From Desulfobulbaceae bacterium (GTDB lineage Bacteria > Desulfobacterota > Desulfobulbia > Desulfobulbales > Desulfobulbaceae): a stretch of 45,242 bases of DNA. The notes below the pieces were generated by a model, which searched no databases, had not been told where the DNA came from, and worked only from the letters and a program-made list of their open reading frames with translations. The position numbers were made by a program, and so were the translations under genes. The stretch lies in the NCBI GenBank assembly GCA_011391865.1, contig JAABPV010000001.1, forward strand, positions 17,676-62,917. The letters are read 5' to 3'. This document shows, piece by piece, positions 15,497 to 36,460 of the stretch (its first letter is position 1; each line of letters begins with the position of its first letter).

Positions 15497-16054
15497 CTAT
15501 CCTTGGCAGCGAAGGAAAGCTGCCTGAATCACCAGTGGCTCGCTGAACCACGCCTCGCTTTTGCCCCATTCGTCATAACCCAGCGTGACCCAGCCGCCCT
15601 GATTAACCCAGTCCTCGTAGCCGAACCGCCAGCCGCGCCAGTTGTCACGACTGCTGTAAGGCTGCTCAGGGCCATAATAGGCAAAATCCAGCCCCATGTC
15701 CTTAACGGCTTTGCGGCTTCTGCCGACCAGCACCATGTTTGCGCCCCAGCGCATGGCTTCTTTGGCTGTGACGTTGGCAATGCCCCGGCCATTGGCTTCA
15801 GCCGGAATCCAGATCAGCACATGGGCGAACACCTTGCAGTCAGCCGGAGCTTGGTCTGCCTGAAAAATCGGCTCCGCCTTGACCGTGGGAGGATAAACCG
15901 CGCCGGTTGGCCGATTTTCCTGATTCAAAAAAGGCACTTCCTCTAATGTTGATGGAATGCCCTCCCAGACCGATTCAGCCCGCTCCTTAATCCCGCAGCC
16001 GCCGAGCAGCGGCAAAACCGCCAGCAGGGCAACAGCTCGGATGACTCTGACCAT
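15497..16054 (-). CDS. Lipoprotein of unknown function
   Basis: The start at 16054 (ATG with GGGGGA upstream) is chosen over an in-frame 16147 start because it places a lipoprotein signal (VIRAVALLAVLPLLGGC, Cys20) at the N terminus. 185 residues. The central segment (KVFAHVLIWIPAEANG, AKEAMRWGANMVLVGRSR) resembles small alpha/beta lipoprotein domains such as RcsF or DUF4156, where a GAN-V motif recurs; this is only a fold-level hint. The C-terminal third is rich in Trp, Tyr and Gly. The role is unknown, probably in the envelope. Confidence 0.7.
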   Translation of the reverse strand: MVRVIRAVALLAVLPLLGGCGIKERAESVWEGIPSTLEEVPFLNQENRPTGAVYPPTVKAEPIFQADQAPADCKVFAHVLIWIPAEANGRGIANVTAKEAMRWGANMVLVGRSRKAVKDMGLDFAYYGPEQPYSSRDNWRGWRFGYEDWVNQGGWVTLGYDEWGKSEAWFSEPLVIQAAFLRCQG

Positions 16055-16122
16055 AGCACTTTCCCCCACGTTGATTGTTTGCCTTTGCCAATGGAGCGGC
16101 TGCCGGAGGAGTGGGTTTGGCT

Positions 16123-24482: not shown

Positions 24483-26456
24483 ATGCTCACCATCAGCAGC
24501 CTCAGCCTTCAGCACGGCCCCAAGCATCTTTTCCGCGACATCTCCGCCCAGATTCATGTCAACGACCGCATCGGTTTAAGCGGTGTCAATGGCACGGGCA
24601 AGTCCACCTTGATGAAAATCATCTGCAAGGAGATTGAGACCGACCCCGGCGTGATCAGTCGGGCCTCGTGGTTCACCGTGGCCTATCTGCCGCAGGAAAT
24701 CACCATTGAGCTGGGCAGCCGAACGCTGTATGAAGAAGCAGAGCACGCCTTTGACGAAGCCTTGCAGCATCAGCGGGAGTTTGAGGAAATCAGCCAGCGC
24801 ATGGCCGGGATTGATCAGCATGACCCGGAGCTGGACGCGCTGATTGAACGCCAAGGCGAATTGCAGCATTTGCTCGAAGGCCACGATGTCTTCCGCATCC
24901 GCCCGCAGATTGAGCGCATCCTCTTTGGCCTTGGTTTTGTTAAAGCGGATTTGGACAGGGAGGTGAAAGAGTTTTCCGGCGGCTGGATCATGCGCCTGCT
25001 TTTAGCCAAGCTGCTTTTGCGCCAGCCCGCCTTGCTTCTGCTGGACGAGCCGACCAACCATCTTGATCTCGACTCGCTGACTTGGATGGAGGAATTCCTT
25101 CAGCAATACCAAGGGGCGATGATGATCATCTCCCATGACCGTTCTTTCTTAGATCGGGTGACAACGAAGACATGGGAGCTGAGTTTGGGCAGGCTGACGG
25201 TCTATAAGGGCAACTACTCCAAATATTTGGAAGAGAAAGTCCTGCGCATGGAGATGGAGCGCGCTTCCTACGACAACCAGCAGGCCCAGATTCGCCAGAC
25301 CGAGCAGTTCATCACCCGCTTCAAGGCCAAATCGACCAAGGCCAAGCAGGTGCAGAGCCGGGTCAAGCAGCTGGAAAAGATTGAGCGGATTGAGCTTTCA
25401 GAAAGCGAGCGCACCATTCATTTCGCCTTTCCCCCTGCGGCACCTTCCGGGCGCGACGTGCTGGAGCTGAACCGGGTTGGCAAGCAGTTTGATGGCAGGA
25501 CTATCTTTAAGGATGTCTCGTTCACGCTGCGGCGCGGCGACAAATTGGCAGTGGTCGGCGTGAATGGCGCGGGCAAGACCACCTTGATGAAGATCATGGC
25601 CGGGCTTGAGCCAGCCGAAGGCACTGTGCGCCGGGGTCATAATGTGGTTATGACCTATTTCGGCCAGCATCAGGCCCAGGAGCTGGACGGTCAGTACAGC
25701 ATCTTAGACACTGTCTATCACAATGCGCAGGACATGACCATAACTAAGGTGCGTTCGCTGCTGGGCGCGTTCCTTTTCACCGGCGATGATGTCGATAAAA
25801 AGGTACAGGTGTTGTCTGGCGGCGAGAAAAGCCGGGTTGCTTTGGCAAAAATGCTGATCAAGCCAGCCAACCTGATGATGCTCGACGAGCCGACCAACCA
25901 TCTCGACATAGCCTCACAGGAGGTTCTGCAAGAGGCGATGGCTCAATACGAAGGCACCATCGTCGTGGTCTCGCACAACCGCTCCTTTGTTAATTCCTTT
26001 GTCAACAAGGTTCTGGAAATCCGCGACCAGCAGGCGTTCCTCCACGACGGCAATATTGACGATTACTTGGAAACTCGTAAGCGGCGCGAGGAAGAAGCAG
26101 CAGGCAGCCTGCGGAATGTCAAAGCTGCCGCGCCGAAAGCCGTTGTTGTCCAGCCTGTTGCAGTCAGCGTTGACCGCAAAGAAGACCGGAAGCAGCGCGG
26201 CCAGCAGCGGGAGCAGGTGAATGCCCAAGTCAAGCCGTGGAAGAAAAAGGCGGTGGATGCGGAAAAGGAGATCGAGCGGCTGGAAACGCAGAAGATTGAG
26301 CTGGAATCACAGATGGCCGACCCGGCTTTGTATGCAGATCAGCAGCGATGGGCCAAGACCAGCAAGGAATATGGCGAGGTGAAGCAGCTTTTGGAGCGGC
26401 AGTATGCGGCTTGGGAAGAGGCGCAGGCGAAGATTGAGGAGCTGGAGCAGAATTAG
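24483..26456 (+). CDS. ABC-F family ATPase (Uup/YheS-like)
   Basis: 657 residues with two ABC ATPase domains and no membrane segments. Walker A sites are GVNGTGKST (near residue 35) and GVNGAGKTT (near 358). Signature segments are FSGGW and LSGGEKS, and Walker B is LLLLDEPTNHLDL and LMMLDEPTNHLDI. The inter-domain linker is the charged helical pair typical of ABC-F proteins, and a C-terminal coiled coil (residues 580-657) ends EEAQAKIEELEQN. ABC-F proteins act on ribosomes at the E site to relieve stalling. The C-terminal codons are echoed at 27049-27140 and 27797-27835. Confidence 0.92.
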   Translation: MLTISSLSLQHGPKHLFRDISAQIHVNDRIGLSGVNGTGKSTLMKIICKEIETDPGVISRASWFTVAYLPQEITIELGSRTLYEEAEHAFDEALQHQREFEEISQRMAGIDQHDPELDALIERQGELQHLLEGHDVFRIRPQIERILFGLGFVKADLDREVKEFSGGWIMRLLLAKLLLRQPALLLLDEPTNHLDLDSLTWMEEFLQQYQGAMMIISHDRSFLDRVTTKTWELSLGRLTVYKGNYSKYLEEKVLRMEMERASYDNQQAQIRQTEQFITRFKAKSTKAKQVQSRVKQLEKIERIELSESERTIHFAFPPAAPSGRDVLELNRVGKQFDGRTIFKDVSFTLRRGDKLAVVGVNGAGKTTLMKIMAGLEPAEGTVRRGHNVVMTYFGQHQAQELDGQYSILDTVYHNAQDMTITKVRSLLGAFLFTGDDVDKKVQVLSGGEKSRVALAKMLIKPANLMMLDEPTNHLDIASQEVLQEAMAQYEGTIVVVSHNRSFVNSFVNKVLEIRDQQAFLHDGNIDDYLETRKRREEEAAGSLRNVKAAAPKAVVVQPVAVSVDRKEDRKQRGQQREQVNAQVKPWKKKAVDAEKEIERLETQKIELESQMADPALYADQQRWAKTSKEYGEVKQLLERQYAAWEEAQAKIEELEQN

Positions 26457-27050: not shown

Positions 27051-27140
27051 GCAAGGATGGGAGAAGCAGGTTGAGGGCTGTGGCTGCGGCCTATAAAAAA
27101 GGCGCAGGGGAAGATTGAGGAGTTGGAGAAAGGGGAGTAG
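27049..27140 (+). pseudogene. Decayed second copy of the ABC-F gene 3' end
   Basis: AGGCGCAGG-GAAGATTGAGGAG and flanks at 27100-27128 match the ABC-F gene at 26419-26447 with two differences in 29 bases. Weaker similarity (AGCAAGGA, GAAGCAG, GCTGCGGCC) extends to about 27049. Allowing one extra A in an A6 run, the end reads AAAYKKAQGKIEELEKGE and stop, against AAWEEAQAKIEELEQN. It starts right at the -35 box of the toxin-antitoxin promoter, so the whole module lies between two ABC-F tails. Confidence 0.8.
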
Positions 27141-27205: not shown

Positions 27206-27835
27206 ATGGCCTACAGTGATTTCACCCTGAAGAAAGTGAAGGCTGATTTTCAACTGAAGACGGTTGAATCGGTCTCGTTGTTTGACGAGGTACCGGAGGC
27301 GGAGATCAGTTCCTATCTTGCCGCGACATTGGCCAGAAATGTCCCGCTGGCCTTGTCAATCAACACGGAAAAAGCCCGCTCTGAGCTGATCATTATCAAC
27401 ATTTTGGTGGAAGCAAGGGAGATGCTGGCCGAAAGCATCAGTCTTTTTTCTGGGATTGATTTCACGGTTGACCGTGAGCGGGGCCTGAGCGGCTTTTGCG
27501 ATTACATTCTGAGCCAATCCGCCGAGCAGCTTTACCTTGATGTGCCAGTTCTGGCAGTGGTTGAGGCGAAAAATGAGGATATTATTTCAGGGCTGGGGCA
27601 ATGCATTGCGGAGATGTACGCCGCCAAGCTGTACAACGAGAAGGAAAACCGCCTGCTGCCCTGCATTTATGGGGCCGTGACCACCGGCGATGAATGGAAA
27701 TTCCTGAAACTTGCCGAAGACACGGTGTTTATAGACAAGCCGTCTTATTACATCAGCAGCATTGGCAAGATTATGGGGGTGTTGGCGTATATGTTGAAGA
27801 AGGCGCAGGGGAAGATTGAGGAGTTAGAAAAATAA
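27206..27835 (+). CDS. PD-(D/E)XK nuclease-like protein
   Basis: 209 residues. The core SGFCDYILSQ (Asp99), then VPVLAVVEAKNED (Glu120-x-Lys122) and a helix GLGQCIAEM, fits the PD-(D/E)XK fold with a conserved Gln after the ExK strand. I recall similar proteins as unnamed entries in cyanobacteria and filamentous bacteria. The substrate is unknown; a role with the next gene is inferred from spacing. The last 12 codons (KKAQGKIEELEK) are nearly identical in DNA to the ABC-F tail echo at 27099-27124 (26 bases without change), suggesting the C terminus was built from that tail. No good ribosome site is seen. Confidence 0.7.
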   Translation: MAYSDFTLKKVKADFQLKTVESVSLFDEVPEAEISSYLAATLARNVPLALSINTEKARSELIIINILVEAREMLAESISLFSGIDFTVDRERGLSGFCDYILSQSAEQLYLDVPVLAVVEAKNEDIISGLGQCIAEMYAAKLYNEKENRLLPCIYGAVTTGDEWKFLKLAEDTVFIDKPSYYISSIGKIMGVLAYMLKKAQGKIEELEK

Positions 27836-27850
27836 AATTTGGTGATTGAA

Positions 27851-29440
27851 ATGACAACTGAATTAGAAACTACCATTCATGCGCTATGCGACAGCTTATC
27901 GCAGCTCTGGTCGCTTGATTTATTCAAGGTAGATTATCTTATTTCGCCAGAATGGCCTAAAAAGGCAGTTACTGAGGCTGAAGAAACGGCAACAAGACTG
28001 CCTGTCACAGGGAGGCTCATCAGAGGCTTACCTGGGGTTAAATTTACTTTTTCACAAGAATCTGACTTAGAGTATTCAATATTAAATCTACTTAGATGTT
28101 CAAATGAGGCACCTAAATCATATCATCATGAGCAAATACAGGGATCACTTACTGAAGTTCAGAGAAATATTTCAAATTTTGCGAAGATAATCCTTGGTCA
28201 TGATAGACTTATTTATCGATCTCTCAAAGAATCAATCGGGTTGAAAATAGGGTCATTTAATGATTTTATTGAGTGGAAGGCGAGCTGGGAAAACGAAACT
28301 ACTTATCCTTCTTGGATATATTTCAGTTCCATTCAAAAAATTCTTACGAAACAACTCATTACGGCTGGATTTAATCCAAATTCTCGACAGGATTTTTCCA
28401 GTTGGGAACTAGTAAAAGAAGGTACAGTCAACGTTCTAAAGGAACTAGAACTGCTTAACGAAGACTTCTATGAAGTTAGGATATTTTTCAATGGTCCGAT
28501 AGTTGATCTATCGGAAGATGTTCCATTAGTTGATCTTTCCATAGCAAACAGAGATGTTCGAGTATTTCTTGGATACGCACCAGATGATTTATTAACTCCC
28601 CTTTCAAATGACGGACGGCCAACATCATGGAGATGCGAACCTGTCATTGGAGTCGAAAAAATTAATACTGTTGCCAGATACAAAGTTAAAATTTCAGCCG
28701 AAGATAACGAAAATTCATATACTAAAGAATATTATTATGCTTCATACGCTGCAAGACTGATACTTGACAGTCTACGTCTTTGTCGTCCTATAGATGATAT
28801 CGGAATTATAGCGATCGAAATCCATCCATTATCTCTATTTGCTCCGCCTATTCCAAAGACATACGGCTATGCTTTTGACTATCAACCATACATGGCCCCT
28901 TACATACCAAAACGATTTGATTTTTCACCAGCCTCTGCTGTGCCATTAAACAAAGAAGAGCTTGAATCTGTTAGCAGGGAAATATTGTTGAGACTACCTT
29001 CGGATACTCCAAAAAACAAAAAGATTGAGTATGCCATAAAACGATTTCGTAACAGTATTGAACGATACTCTCCTGATGATCCAGAACGACTTATTGAATA
29101 TGCCATCGCCCTTGAAACAATATATTTAAACGATAACGGCACAGAACGAACCGAATTAACATACCGCCTTCGCCTTCGAGCTGCTCGTTTTTTAAAGGAA
29201 AATTATGAGGACCGAGACAAATTATTTAAGCTCATAGGAGATCTTTACAGCTTTCGCTCTACAGTTGCACATGGTGGAGATATTTCAATCAGCGCAGAGA
29301 AAGATCAGGAAAAACTAAGAAATATTCTCAAAGAGATACCGAGTGTTCTCGCAGAGTCGATTCTTAAAATTATGAATGAACATTACGAAGAGCATAACAC
29401 AAAAGCGTTGTTGTTTTGGAGGAAAATTGAACTTCAATAA
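27851..29440 (+). CDS. Apea-type HEPN domain protein
   Basis: 529 residues from the ATG at 27851, with GGTGAT upstream. The N-terminal 350 residues are unassigned. The C-terminal part (ERLIEYAIALETIYLNDNG, TYRLRLRAARFL, DLYSFRSTVAHGG) is an Apea-like HEPN domain. Its RNase motif R-x4-H is intact as Arg469 and His474. HEPN domains of this kind cut RNA, and ApeA itself is an antiphage protein. The gene lies 15 bases after the PD-(D/E)XK-like gene, so the two probably share a message. The DNA is clearly AT-rich, as expected for acquired genes. Confidence 0.8.
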   Translation: MTTELETTIHALCDSLSQLWSLDLFKVDYLISPEWPKKAVTEAEETATRLPVTGRLIRGLPGVKFTFSQESDLEYSILNLLRCSNEAPKSYHHEQIQGSLTEVQRNISNFAKIILGHDRLIYRSLKESIGLKIGSFNDFIEWKASWENETTYPSWIYFSSIQKILTKQLITAGFNPNSRQDFSSWELVKEGTVNVLKELELLNEDFYEVRIFFNGPIVDLSEDVPLVDLSIANRDVRVFLGYAPDDLLTPLSNDGRPTSWRCEPVIGVEKINTVARYKVKISAEDNENSYTKEYYYASYAARLILDSLRLCRPIDDIGIIAIEIHPLSLFAPPIPKTYGYAFDYQPYMAPYIPKRFDFSPASAVPLNKEELESVSREILLRLPSDTPKNKKIEYAIKRFRNSIERYSPDDPERLIEYAIALETIYLNDNGTERTELTYRLRLRAARFLKENYEDRDKLFKLIGDLYSFRSTVAHGGDISISAEKDQEKLRNILKEIPSVLAESILKIMNEHYEEHNTKALLFWRKIELQ

Positions 29441-30304: not shown

Positions 30305-30343
30305 GCAGGCCGTCAAGCAGCCTTTCTTCTGAATGAACATGAA
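30305..30343 (+). repeat. Shared leader element, copy 1
   Basis: GCAGGCCGTCAAGCAGCC and the following bases up to the start codon and ATGAACAT match 30904-30940 at roughly 33 of 37 positions with one gap. The match covers the untranslated leader and the first codons, then stops. Confidence 0.75.
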
Positions 30344-30903: not shown

Positions 30904-30940
30904 GCAGGCCGTCAGGCAGCCCTTTTCAGAATGAACATCT
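30904..30940 (+). repeat. Shared leader element, copy 2
   Basis: Second copy of the element at 30305-30343, immediately before the membrane-protein gene at 30931. Copy 2 starts eight bases after the stop of the preceding gene. Confidence 0.75.
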
Positions 30941-31388: not shown

Positions 31389-32585
31389 ATGTCCCCGTCT
31401 GTCTCCGAATTGCACCACCGCGCCGCCGCTGTGGTTGATCTTGCCTGCATCAGCCACAATTTGAACGTGGTGCGGGAAAAAGCTCCGGGCCGAAAGATCA
31501 TCGCCATGATCAAAGCCAACGCCTACGGCCACGGGCTGACGCGGGTGGGCGCGCATCTGGCGGCGGAAGGCGTGGATTATCTCGGCACTGCTTTTGTTGA
31601 GGAGGCGCTGGAGCTGCGCAGGGCGGGCATTGCTGTTCCGATCATCACTTCCGGGCCGTTCTCCAAATTTCAGATTGGTCTTTTCATTGAAAACCAGATC
31701 GACTTCACTGTCGGCTCTGTTGACGCGCTCCAGCTCATCAGCGAATCAGCCGCCTTCTATAAAAAGCGGGTCAATGTCCATTTGAAAATTGACACCGGCA
31801 TGATGCGCATCGGCATCCGGCATTCCAATGCGGATAAGCTCTTTACAGCGGCCCTGAAAGCGGAGAAGCAGGTCAACGTGGTCTCTGTTTTTTCCCACTT
31901 CGCCAATGCCGACAGCGACGACCTCAGCTTTGCCCGCCTTCAGCTGGAACGCTTCTTGGAAGCGGCCCGCTTCTACGAGCGGCGTGCCGACCAGCCCAAG
32001 CCGCTGCTGCAAATTGCCAATTCCGCCGCCATCCTGCGCCTGCCGGAAAGCCATTTGGACATGGTCAGGCCGGGCATCATGCTCTACGGCTGCCACCCTT
32101 CGCCGCACACGGCGGCTGAGGCCAAGCTGTTACCAGCCCTTTCGCTGCGGGCAAAGGTGATGTATTTCAAGGTGATTCTCAAAGGCAGCAGCGTCGGCTA
32201 CGGCAGAACATGGACCACGCCTGAGAACTGCCGGGCCGTCACCCTGCCGATAGGCTACGCCGACGGCTACTCACGCGGGCTGTCGAACAAAGGGCAGGTG
32301 CTGCTGCGCGGCAGGCGGTATCCGGTGGTCGGCACAGTCTGCATGGACCAGCTTGTGGTCAACATCGGCGACGGCGAGGCGTACAACGGCGACGAGGCAG
32401 TGCTGATCGGCAGGCAGGGCGAGGAAGAAATTACTGCGGACGCTCTGGCCGCCCAGCTTGGCACGATCAGCTACGAAGTGCTGACCGGCATCAGCCAGCG
32501 CGTGCCGAGGATTTACATCAACGAGCGACGACCTGCCGCCTGCCGGACATCGCCTGTCACCGCGAGAAGTTCCGGCGCGGCTTAG
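31389..32585 (+). CDS. alr: Alanine racemase with an aberrant C terminus
   Basis: PLP-dependent interconversion of L- and D-alanine for peptidoglycan. 398 residues. The PLP lysine is Lys42 in MIKANAYGHG and the catalytic tyrosine is Tyr271 in SVGYGRTW. LKIDTGMMRIGIR, GIMLYGCHP and TVCMDQLVVNIG are standard. The native protein should end at about VPRIYINE; the last 18 residues (RPAACRTSPVTARSSGAA) instead come from a fragment of argS read in the wrong frame. The start at 31389 is chosen because the conserved domain begins there; the longer frame from 31194 overlaps a membrane gene. Confidence 0.93.
   Translation: MSPSVSELHHRAAAVVDLACISHNLNVVREKAPGRKIIAMIKANAYGHGLTRVGAHLAAEGVDYLGTAFVEEALELRRAGIAVPIITSGPFSKFQIGLFIENQIDFTVGSVDALQLISESAAFYKKRVNVHLKIDTGMMRIGIRHSNADKLFTAALKAEKQVNVVSVFSHFANADSDDLSFARLQLERFLEAARFYERRADQPKPLLQIANSAAILRLPESHLDMVRPGIMLYGCHPSPHTAAEAKLLPALSLRAKVMYFKVILKGSSVGYGRTWTTPENCRAVTLPIGYADGYSRGLSNKGQVLLRGRRYPVVGTVCMDQLVVNIGDGEAYNGDEAVLIGRQGEEEITADALAAQLGTISYEVLTGISQRVPRIYINERRPAACRTSPVTARSSGAA
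32529..32583 (+). repeat. Fragment of argS fused to the end of alr
   Basis: 55 bases match argS 35727-35781 with only two differences. In argS they encode PTYRLPDIAYHREKFRRGF. Here they are out of frame and provide the alr stop codon. It is a direct repeat 3.2 kb apart, enclosing the Uma2 and HEPN genes and the first half of argS. With so few changes it is younger than the other gene echoes in the window. Confidence 0.95.
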
Positions 32586-32721
32586 GGGCATCCAGCAGGA
32601 ATACCTTGCGTTTCCACCAATTAGCATGTAAATATTCGGCATGATTCGCTGTGGGGTGCCTGACGAACATCAGTCGGTGCGCATTCATAGTTTCATTGAT
32701 GAGAGCGTGGGAAGGTAAATT

Positions 32722-33321
32722 ATGCAAGCTGCTGAACAGTATCTTCTTTCCGAAGAGGAATATCTGGCTGCTGAACGTCAGCAGCCAGAAAAGCATGAAT
32801 GGTATCAGGGGGAATGCTTTGCTATGGCGGGCGGCACACGCTGGCATAATTTGCTCGCCAGCCGGATATTGGCAGAGCTGGTGCGGCATCTTGACGGCAA
32901 AAAATGCACGCCGTACATGGCTGATCTCCGGCTGCTCATTGAAGCGCACCGGCATTATGTCTATCCTGACGTGATGGTGATTTGCAATGAAGCGGCATAC
33001 CTTACCGATGACATGGCGAAGGATGCCGAGATCATTGTTGAGGTGCTGTCAGCAGGGACGGAATCCTATGACAGGGGGCAGAAATTTTTGCATTATCAGT
33101 CTGTGCCCTCGCTGCGGGAATACGTGCTGGTCAGTCAGAATGTGATGCAGGTTGAGATATATCGGCGGCGGCAGGATAGAAAATGGGAATATGAGCGGCT
33201 GATGCATCCGGAAGATGTGCTGTTGTTTGAGACGGTTGGCTGCGTTGTCACGCTGGAGATGTTGTATCGTGGGGTTCCGTTAGGGGGTAAATTAGGTAAT
33301 ATTAGTCAGAGCACACGGTGA
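32722..33321 (+). CDS. Uma2 family (PD-(D/E)XK) protein
   Basis: 199 residues. EEEYLAAERQQPEKHEWYQGECFAMAGGTRWHNLLASRI is the typical Uma2/DUF820 opening. Asp83 (YPDVMV) and Glu107 (IIVEVLS) with the downstream Lys in YDRGQKFLHYQ form the nuclease-like centre. The family is abundant in cyanobacteria and other filamentous bacteria, and its role is unsettled. It lies 136 bases after alr. A HEPN gene follows 28 bases later. I see no known element in the 136-base spacer beyond its AT-rich nature. Confidence 0.92.
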   Translation: MQAAEQYLLSEEEYLAAERQQPEKHEWYQGECFAMAGGTRWHNLLASRILAELVRHLDGKKCTPYMADLRLLIEAHRHYVYPDVMVICNEAAYLTDDMAKDAEIIVEVLSAGTESYDRGQKFLHYQSVPSLREYVLVSQNVMQVEIYRRRQDRKWEYERLMHPEDVLLFETVGCVVTLEMLYRGVPLGGKLGNISQSTR

Positions 33322-33349: not shown

Positions 33350-34789
33350 ATGCTACTGGATATTGAAATGAAATCTGAAATTCATATACATCCATCTGCC
33401 GCTGAAAATTTTAATAAAAAAGCAAACGAGATTTTATCTTTTGTGCATAAGTATGAAGATAAACGAATAGAATTTACTGAAAGTTCATCTTTTAAATCAG
33501 CTCGAATTCCTCATCACCAATTAGACGAGCAGGAATATATTGTAAATTACAATGAAGGTATAAATTTAAAAGATTCGGAGGGAAAGTTTATCGAATTCTC
33601 CTTTGAGATGGAGGGGGTAAAATACTTTCTTGACAAAAACAACTATCATTTAATATTATCTCTTTCAAAACAAATATTATCATGTTTTCGCGATAAAATA
33701 AGTGAAAAATTTTCCAAGCAACTTATATACAACTGGATAAAACTTCGCTTTTCAAGCGAAAACAGCAGTATCTCTTTTGATAAATACCTCAAAGGAGAGA
33801 TTAAAAATAATGTACGAGATATCACATGTTATGTTCCAGTTGCTAATCTTGAAATAGAAGGAACTGTCTTAGTTGGAAGACATGAGCTTCGGCCATTATC
33901 TGAAGAAATGATAGATACATGGAAAGGAAAATTATTGAGTAATACTCAATCGGTTAGTGATAATGAACACAAGGAAAATATTGAAATGTTGATACAAGAT
34001 ATCAGGTGTGACTATCAAGGACTTGCTATTATTGTATGCAATTACAATGCTGAAGAATATCACGCCCACCATATAGCAAGAGAAGAGGCGAAAAATATAA
34101 TTTCAATTCTTGCAATATTTTTGAAAGATATAATTATACCTAACATGAAATTATCATTAGGCAATATAAAAGAAGAAGATTTTATATCAAGAACAACATC
34201 AATTTCTTTCTCAGGAGATCGTTTTGCAATGTATCGAGGTTTTAAAAGAAAAATGACAACTGTTCCATACCATAGATTAGATAAAAAATATATAAAATTG
34301 CTGCATGATCTTTGCTTTGAAAAAATATCTTGCCTTTTAGCGAAAGAAGAAAAGAATCTGAATAAATTTCAGGAAAGAATACTTGCCTCCTTATTAATGT
34401 ATTCAAAGTCGGCCTTTACTGCCGAACCAACTGAAAAAATAGTATACATATTGACATCTTTGGAGATTATTTTATTAAAGAACGATAACGAGCCAATCCA
34501 ACAAAATTTAGCAGAACGATTTGCATTTTTTTGTTCAAATGAATTCTCGAAAAGAAAGAAGCTAATAAGTATCATACGAAAAATTTATTCGATGAGATCG
34601 AAATACTTACATCATGGTTACTCAAGTTATGAGATCGAAATTTCTTCAGAATTTATGCGTGAAGTATGGTTGTTTTTTATGCAATTGATAGCTATTTCAG
34701 ATTGCTTTCAAAATAAAGATGATTTTGTGTGTTCGATTGATGATAAAAAATTTGGCGGCGGAATACTTCTGCCAAAGAATGCTGTTTAA
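33350..34789 (+). CDS. Second Apea-type HEPN domain protein
   Basis: 479 residues from ATG 33350; ATG 33368 (MKSEIHIHPS) is an equally possible start, and neither has a good ribosome site. VPVANLEIEGTVLVGRHELRPLSEE is typical of Apea-like N-terminal regions. The C-terminal HEPN domain (EKIVYILTSLEIILLKND, LAERFAFFCS, KIYSMRSKYLHHGYSS) carries Arg416 and His421 in an R-x4-H motif. It is not closely similar to the HEPN protein at 27851. The DNA is the most AT-rich in the window, in sharp contrast with argS 15 bases downstream. Confidence 0.82.
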   Translation: MLLDIEMKSEIHIHPSAAENFNKKANEILSFVHKYEDKRIEFTESSSFKSARIPHHQLDEQEYIVNYNEGINLKDSEGKFIEFSFEMEGVKYFLDKNNYHLILSLSKQILSCFRDKISEKFSKQLIYNWIKLRFSSENSSISFDKYLKGEIKNNVRDITCYVPVANLEIEGTVLVGRHELRPLSEEMIDTWKGKLLSNTQSVSDNEHKENIEMLIQDIRCDYQGLAIIVCNYNAEEYHAHHIAREEAKNIISILAIFLKDIIIPNMKLSLGNIKEEDFISRTTSISFSGDRFAMYRGFKRKMTTVPYHRLDKKYIKLLHDLCFEKISCLLAKEEKNLNKFQERILASLLMYSKSAFTAEPTEKIVYILTSLEIILLKNDNEPIQQNLAERFAFFCSNEFSKRKKLISIIRKIYSMRSKYLHHGYSSYEIEISSEFMREVWLFFMQLIAISDCFQNKDDFVCSIDDKKFGGGILLPKNAV

Positions 34790-34804: not shown

Positions 34805-36460
34805 ATGATCCGATCACGACTGAAAAACCTTCTTGACCACTACTTCCAGCAGGGCGTGGAGCAGAGCCTCTGGTCTGCCGCCGCCGCTGGCCTGTACAAT
34901 CTGGAAACGCCCAAGCACGAGGGCCAGGGCGATTTTGCCACCAACTTCGCCATGATCGTCGCAGGCAAGGAGCGGCGCAAGCCCCGCGAGGTGGCCGAGC
35001 AGTTAGCCGCGCTGCTTCGGCAGGATGCCGCCCTTGTAGACAAGGTGGAAATCGCCGGGCCGGGCTTTGTGAACCTCTTCCTCAACCCGGCGGTCTGGAG
35101 TTCCGTACTCGCGCCAATTGCCGAGCAGGGAGAGAAATTTGGCCTCTGCAATATTGGCAAAAGCATCAAGGCGATGGTCGAGTTTGTCAGTGCCAATCCG
35201 ACCGGCCCGCTGACTGTCGGGCATGGCCGCAACGCGGTGCTCGGCGACGCAGTTGCCAGCCTGCTCGTCGCGGTCGGCTGGGATGTCACCCGCGAGTATT
35301 ACTTCAACGATGCGGGGCGGCAGATGCGCGTCCTCGGCGCGTCGCTCAAGGCCCGCTATTTGGAAAAGCTCGGCCTGCCGAACGAATTCCCGGAGGACGG
35401 CTATCAGGGCGGCTACATGTACGACATCGCCCAAGGGATGATTGACGAGGCGGGCGAGGGCTTCAAGAACGCGGATTTGGATGTGTTCCGCAAGCGGGCG
35501 CAGGAGGCGATTTTTGCTGACATTGACGCGACGCTGAAGCGCATCGGCATCAGCTTCGATTCCTACTACAACGAGCACAGCCTCTACGAGAACGGGTTGA
35601 TCGAGGACGTGGTGGCCGAGCTGCGGGCGAAAGGGCTAGTCTATGAGCAGGAGGGCGCGACCTGGTTCAAGACCACCGAGTTCGGCCAGGCGCAGGACCG
35701 CGTAATCATCAAGAACACCGGCGAGCCGACCTACCGCCTGCCGGACATCGCCTATCACCGCGAGAAGTTCCGGCGCGGCTTTGAGCGGATGATCAACGTC
35801 TTCGGCTCAGACCACATCGCCACCGTGCCGGACGTGCTGGCCGGAGTCGAGGCGCTCGGCTACGACAAAAGCAAGGTGCAGGTGATCATGCACCAGTTTG
35901 TCACCCTGATGCGCGGCGGCAAGCAGGTGAAGATGTCCACCCGCAAGGCTTCCTTCATTACTGTAGATGAGCTGGTGGACGAGGTCGGCACGGACGCGCT
36001 CCGCTTCTTCTTCCTGATGCGCAAGGCTGACTCGCAGTTAGAATTTGATCTGGAGCTGGCTAAGGCGCAAAGCCAGGAGAACCCGGTGTATTATGTGCAA
36101 TACGGCCACGCCCGGCTCTGTTCCATCGAGCGGCTGGCTGAAGAGCGCGGCATCGCCTTGCCGGAGCCTGCGGGCTCGGATTTGAGCCAGCTCAAGGAAG
36201 CGGAGGAGTATCAGCTCCTGAAAACGCTGGCCGCCTATCCCGGCCTGATCGCCGACGCGGCGGAAGACTTGGCTCCGCACCGGCTGATTTTCTTCCTCAT
36301 GGATTTGGCCGGGCAGTTCCACTCCTTCTACAACAAGCACAAGGTGATGACCGAGGATCCGCAGCTGACAGCGGCGCGGCTCTGCCTGTGCAGGGGCGTG
36401 AAAACGGTCTTGGCCAACGGGCTGGGACTGATCGGCGTGAGCGCGCCGGAGCGGATGTAG
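34805..36460 (+). CDS. argS: Arginyl-tRNA synthetase
   Basis: Charges tRNA-Arg with arginine using ATP. 551 residues, normal length. The N-terminal domain (LWSAAAAGLYNLETPKHEGQGDFATNFAM), class I signature NPTGPLTVGHGRN, VFGSDHIATVPDV, KMSTRKASFI and the C-terminal helical anticodon-binding domain (LAGQFHSFYNKHKVM) are all present. AGAGA lies upstream of the ATG. Host-like GC content, immediately after an AT-rich insert. Bases 35727-35781 are repeated at the end of alr. Confidence 0.97.
   Translation: MIRSRLKNLLDHYFQQGVEQSLWSAAAAGLYNLETPKHEGQGDFATNFAMIVAGKERRKPREVAEQLAALLRQDAALVDKVEIAGPGFVNLFLNPAVWSSVLAPIAEQGEKFGLCNIGKSIKAMVEFVSANPTGPLTVGHGRNAVLGDAVASLLVAVGWDVTREYYFNDAGRQMRVLGASLKARYLEKLGLPNEFPEDGYQGGYMYDIAQGMIDEAGEGFKNADLDVFRKRAQEAIFADIDATLKRIGISFDSYYNEHSLYENGLIEDVVAELRAKGLVYEQEGATWFKTTEFGQAQDRVIIKNTGEPTYRLPDIAYHREKFRRGFERMINVFGSDHIATVPDVLAGVEALGYDKSKVQVIMHQFVTLMRGGKQVKMSTRKASFITVDELVDEVGTDALRFFFLMRKADSQLEFDLELAKAQSQENPVYYVQYGHARLCSIERLAEERGIALPEPAGSDLSQLKEAEEYQLLKTLAAYPGLIADAAEDLAPHRLIFFLMDLAGQFHSFYNKHKVMTEDPQLTAARLCLCRGVKTVLANGLGLIGVSAPERM

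Follow-up and report, generated by a model that had tools for sequence, protein, structure and literature searches.

A short argS-derived fragment at the end of alr in a Desulfobulbaceae bacterium is probably a rearrangement scar

Results

The alr-argS locus

We analysed a 45,242-nt stretch (the window) of contig JAABPV010000001.1 from a Desulfobulbaceae bacterium (assembly GCA_011391865.1). Four genes follow each other there on the plus strand, to which all coordinates below refer: alr, a Uma2-family gene, a HEPN-like gene, and argS. The alr gene (31389–32585) encodes an alanine racemase of 398 aa, and argS (34805–36460) encodes an intact arginyl-tRNA synthetase with the domains PF05746, PF00750, and PF03485. 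An Rfam search of the window returned no RNA element.

The Uma2-family gene (32722–33321, 199 aa) matches PF05685 (2.8e-29) and the PDC-S03 models of PADLOC, and has about 70% identical homologues in two of the genomes compared below (G021 and G029). DNA similarity to its two nearest homologues begins at ~32717 and is limited to the coding part; we rejected the idea that Uma2 is a mobile unit that carried its leader along. The product of the HEPN-like gene (33350–34789, 479 aa) had no Pfam match at E 0.001 and no PADLOC or NCBIfam match, and a single-sequence fold prediction was uninformative (mean pLDDT 32). It is presumably a HEPN protein: we keep the label given by a first-pass annotation of the window and take RSKYLH to be the RxxxxH motif. 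Upstream of the alr region, a 533-aa ORF (27839–29440) gave a weak CARF-HEPN match (PADLOC, E = 0.0017).

The argS-derived fragment

The last codons of alr are a near copy of internal argS sequence. A repeat search of the window found a single 55-nt direct repeat that pairs 32529–32583 with 35727–35781 at a spacing of 3198, on the same strand and with 96% identity (53/55), the longest exact run being 27 nt. The donor stretch encodes ArgRS residues 308–326. Codon 381 of alr begins at 32529, and the fragment is read there in a different frame, giving exactly 18 residues (RPAACRTSPVTARSSGAA, Alr residues 381–398) and the first base of the stop codon. In the window's own genome (G000, 2.8 Mb in 87 contigs), a 212-nt probe around the fragment had no match other than itself and argS (E = 9.1e-20 for argS). 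At three mismatches or fewer, a search of 57 genomes found the 55-mer twice in this genome and once each in G003 and G004; the remaining 54 had none. The similarity is far beyond chance. Thus, the first-pass claims that the alr frame ends in 55 bases of internal argS with two mismatches, and that these supply 18 novel residues, both held. Its statement that they also supply the stop was right for one base: the TAG at 32583–32585 spans the right-hand join, its T belonging to the fragment and its AG to the next block. The tail is basic, as had been noted, if modestly so, with three Arg and no Lys, Asp, or Glu among the 18 residues.

We compared the fragment with 13 argS sequences. It differs from the window's argS at two sites, both G in the fragment and A in 13/13 argS, so the changes arose in the copy, after copying. 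A third site varies among the argS sequences; here the fragment carries the G of the window's own argS, which is also found in G002 and others and is absent from G003, G004, and G001. The fragment was closest to the argS of its own genome, which supports an origin from the argS of this lineage. The event, proposed earlier to be recent, is poorly dated by two A-to-G changes, the sole differences.

That both differences are A-to-G changes at adenines of the donor stretch is also the pattern of mutagenic retrohoming, in which the fragment would be the variable repeat of a diversity-generating retroelement. Two changes are, however, too few; the sole reverse transcriptase found in the genome lies on another contig, and its 3.6-kb locus holds no copy of the fragment or of argS. 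We rejected this reading, to which we give practically no chance, as no reverse transcriptase with a template repeat lies near the fragment. The reverse transcriptase itself is a lone 525-aa ORF (868–2445 of locus L295, contig C75).

We then examined the edges of the copy. Neither flank continues as argS, and outside the ungapped 55 nt there is no identical base directly adjacent on either edge. When a 2-base gap is allowed, the match grows leftward to 62 columns (32522–32583); the left edge is thus blurred by a 2-base difference, CGAGCGACGACC versus CGAGCCGACC, and CGAG is common to both sites at a 2-nt offset. On the right, CGCGGCT occurs in argS and in the corresponding block of G004, the comparison being read from G004 and not from the ancestor. 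Gene conversion with argS, one of the earlier suggestions, is unlikely in its usual sense because the flanking homology amounts to only a few bases.

Could the join be an assembly or amplification artefact, in which the draft genome wrongly connects alr to argS sequence? The assembly is fragmented into its 87 contigs, and our sampled stretches contain six exact repeats of 77–81 nt, 177 nt apart and with flank identity near zero, each adjoining an N run, as is typical of scaffold gaps where contig ends overlap. These known artefacts are exact and exceed 55 nt, whereas the fragment has its two mismatches and no exact run above 27 nt. A wrong join should also continue as argS on one side, and the observed structure would require two joins plus two errors. 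The mismatches in the copy and the absence of further argS sequence on either side make an artefact unlikely.

Alr and its tail

The Alr core is complete. PF01168 is covered in full (1–220/220), as is PF00842 (Ala_racemase_C, 1–127/127), which ends at Alr residue 376, and the equivalog model TIGR00492 scores 369.5 bits against a cut-off of 168 over residues 12–377. K42 and Y271, which we take to be the PLP lysine and the catalytic tyrosine, are invariant in 14/14 aligned Alr sequences, as are 52 further columns. The protein is 83–87% identical to Alr of three Electronema or Desulfobulbaceae genomes, including Ca. Electronema aureum, which places the window's genome among the cable bacteria, close to Ca. 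Electronema. It therefore resembles any TIGR00492 alanine racemase in its complete core and its score over the cut-off, and differs in that its last 18 residues are out-of-frame argS. To say that the Alr C terminus was replaced was an overstatement: the Ala_racemase_C domain is whole and the core (about residues 12–377) ends before the fragment, which falls in a non-conserved tail. Given the intact core, a loss of activity appears unlikely.

The ends beyond the core vary greatly among the aligned Alr sequences. In an AlphaFold2 model the core was confident and residues 382–398 had pLDDT <50, so that the tail is predicted to be disordered; it is most likely neutral. These observations bear on whether the fragment was kept for a function, either as a regulatory Alr tail or as a repeat that serves as an engine amplifying Uma2-HEPN between direct repeats. 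The frame does stay open to a stop, and short direct repeats are able to recombine. Yet tails are short or missing in several relatives, the tail of this Alr is predicted to be disordered, and recombination between the repeats would remove the 5′ part of argS. We regard a selected function as very improbable.

The block after the fragment

Directly after the alr stop lies a block (32586–32645) whose homologues stand upstream of argS in three further Electronema genomes (G004, G001, and G002). In local alignments against shuffled sequences, none of 1000 shuffles reached the score for G004 or for G001, and 12/1000 did so for G002. The block contains TTGCGT (32606–32611), a 17-nt spacer, and TAAATA (32629–32634); a consensus promoter scan of the window did not list 32606–32634. 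In relatives, a parallel pattern, TTGACA-17-TAGA, is visible by eye ahead of the gene that precedes alr. We call the block promoter-like and infer that it functions as the argS promoter. The fragment thus sits exactly at the join of the alr end and the argS 5′ block, with no spacer on either side.

The alr-argS gap in relatives

We searched 57 genomes and found both alr and argS in 54. The two genes lay on the same strand and contig, alr first and at most 3.4 kb apart, in 46/54 genomes, and within 317 nt in 41; these counts ignore second, smaller matches (alr in G018; argS in G033, G044, and G051). Because alr precedes argS within 3.4 kb in 46/54 genomes, the two evidently form an old gene pair in this order. 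Five of the eight exceptions (G001, G002, G021, G029, and G035) are cable bacteria, out of seven cable-bacterium genomes with both genes found; G021, G029, and G035 would be Electrothrix, judging from their Alr similarity, like L037 (Ca. Electrothrix aarhusensis). In the other three (G044, G045, and G049) alr and argS are on separate contigs, and a contig break may be all that separates the pair.

In Ca. Electronema aureum (G003, locus L034) the order is alr-HEPN-argS. The start of the HEPN-like homologue, 59–65% identical to ours by tblastn and 62–75% in a second comparison, overlaps the alr end, and this gap contains no Uma2 and no fragment. The homologue matches in two frames (L034 7151–8541) and may be broken or frameshifted. 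A HEPN-like gene in the gap of G003 without Uma2 or fragment suggests that this gene is older than the fragment or independent of it. The comparison thus bears out an old, close gene pair and contradicts the earlier proposal that one event placed the fragment together with Uma2 and HEPN.

Other genes occupy the space before argS elsewhere. Between the upstream block and argS, G004 has a HicA-type gene (PF07927) with a weakly HicB-like partner, and G002 has a gene with a weak TumE toxin match. A Phd/YefM-ParE pair precedes argS in G021, and a FRG-domain gene lies between alr and argS in L038. These differing genes suggest that the content of the space changes often; this slot (L124 in G004, L125 in G002, L170 in G021, and L038) may be a hot spot. 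The Electronema gap has been invaded and remodelled. Comparison of argS and alr gave no firm branching order for Electronema.

The fragment could also be a relic of an ancestral argS that once stood directly after alr, with a second argS copy, promoter and cargo included, having moved in. This would fit the position of argS directly after alr in most of the order, and also the finding that in G001 and G002 argS and its promoter block are on a different contig from alr, while a search of G004 found no alr. But a relic older than the genus should differ from the present argS by more than 2/55, both differences are on the relic side, and all but 55 nt would have to be lost, at both ends. We hold a relic to be improbable.

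Short local copies in cable bacteria and relatives

We surveyed 400 kb per genome for similar short copies in three cable bacteria (G000, G003, and G035) and three relatives (G009, G011, and G039). Per 400 kb, a first pass yielded 13 isolated pairs in G000, 9 in G003, 6 in G035, 1 in G009, and 2 in G011. The second pass, to which G039 was added, removed pairs that adjoin N runs (6 in G000), are tandem, have similar flanks, or lie inside a single ORF, as well as dispersed families, which numbered 36 in G035 and fewer in the other genomes. It left 3, 4, and 2 unique copies in the cable bacteria and 0, 1, and 0 in the relatives. The total is 9 versus 1 in 1.2 Mb each (one-sided p = 0.011, with filters that are post hoc, chosen after the first pass had been seen). 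The survey is small and exploratory, and its count excludes the window itself. Some of the pairs may be old paralogous ends.

Several individual copies were recorded. A TPR-protein gene of G003 has its final 65 nt (L207, 15284–15348) repeated 736 nt downstream (16020–16084) with one mismatch, and two neighbouring genes of the same genome (L201) both end in KLGIV and a stop, with 38 nt in common around the stop codon. In G000, an 80-nt gene end is repeated 363 nt upstream (L183), and palindromic repeats of the form CGTAGGGGCAATTCATGAATTGCCCCTACG (L189, 13771–14440) probably represent a dispersed small element. The window itself has near-copies of 32–36 nt, 91–92% identical, at or after the ends of three ORFs (26416–26447, 27097–27131, and 27797–27832). 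The sequence encodes a stretch ending in AQxKIEELE close to the stop codon of an ABC-ATPase gene; it reappears downstream of the following ORF, and again where it forms the end of another, unrelated one. Also in the window, a 36-nt near-copy (89%; 30305–30340 and 30904–30938) marks the starts of two neighbouring ORFs, 30333 and 30931. In the relatives read, the intervening ORF was not found beside the second gene.

Discussion

The fragment is probably the scar of a deletion or rearrangement where alr meets the 5′ region of argS. DNA separating alr from the argS promoter would have been lost and the ends then joined, by one of two routes. In the first, a short patch would be templated on argS, 3.2 kb away, during repair or replication, by annealing through a few bases (CGAG on the left and CGCGGCT on the right). 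In the second, a tandem duplication would span the argS promoter through argS codon 326, and most of its first copy would then be deleted; as expected from such a history, the right edge of the fragment directly abuts the argS upstream block. Both routes yield exactly the observed structure. The joined frame would leave Alr normal but for an added unstructured tail of 18 residues, and the argS-promoter-like block after the alr stop would transcribe Uma2, HEPN, and argS. None of the seven alr ends that we read for the pre-event site (L033–L039) matched the flanks on both sides.

We tried other ways of making the join. Ku-type end joining is not a likely route because no Ku gene was found in the genome, which is 95% complete. 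A ComEC-type DNA-uptake gene is present, and uptake of the fragment is faintly conceivable. The upstream blocks of G004 and G002 showed no significant wider similarity to argS (p 0.12, 0.43, 0.21, and 0.82); compared with the fragment itself they gave p 0.012 for G004 and 0.121 for G002. We rejected gene conversion starting from an older similarity of argS to the block upstream of it, that similarity not being significant.

A rearrangement scar of this type has known counterparts. In Acinetobacter baylyi, short-patch double illegitimate recombination reportedly inserts short templated pieces at microhomologies. Our case is similar in that the insert is a near-exact copy of a short sequence elsewhere in the same genome, as in a templated insertion, and may be bounded by a few matching bases on each side (on the right by way of G004). 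It differs in that the putative patch also joins regions that are apart or differently spaced in relatives, and that the donor is only 3.2 kb away. In Salmonella, spontaneous deletions and tandem duplications carry microhomology at their junctions, as is ordinary in bacteria (PMC3411829). The confirmed junctions of that study have longer microhomology, with cut-offs of 7 bp or more, whereas our junction has a few bases on the left, an inferred 7 bp at most on the right, and filler between. In our literature search, the titles and abstracts mentioned neither this locus nor short tail copies in cable bacteria.

The observed copy is real, and the probable scar is small and ordinary in kind. Beyond a floppy tail on Alr it probably has no effect. 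By itself it means little, showing that a rearrangement can harmlessly rewrite the end of an essential gene; the analysis also corrects the history of the Uma2/HEPN block. A broader reading is that pieces of ∼35–80 nt, in many cases a gene end including its stop codon, are copied into gene boundaries close by at a raised rate in cable bacteria, so that unrelated neighbours share or swap C-terminal tails, the alr tail being one product. We find this reading unlikely, and the excess of short local copies is a lead only. If true, the excess would indicate that cable bacteria have a repair or uptake process that forms patches, one that could be measured in uncultured organisms.
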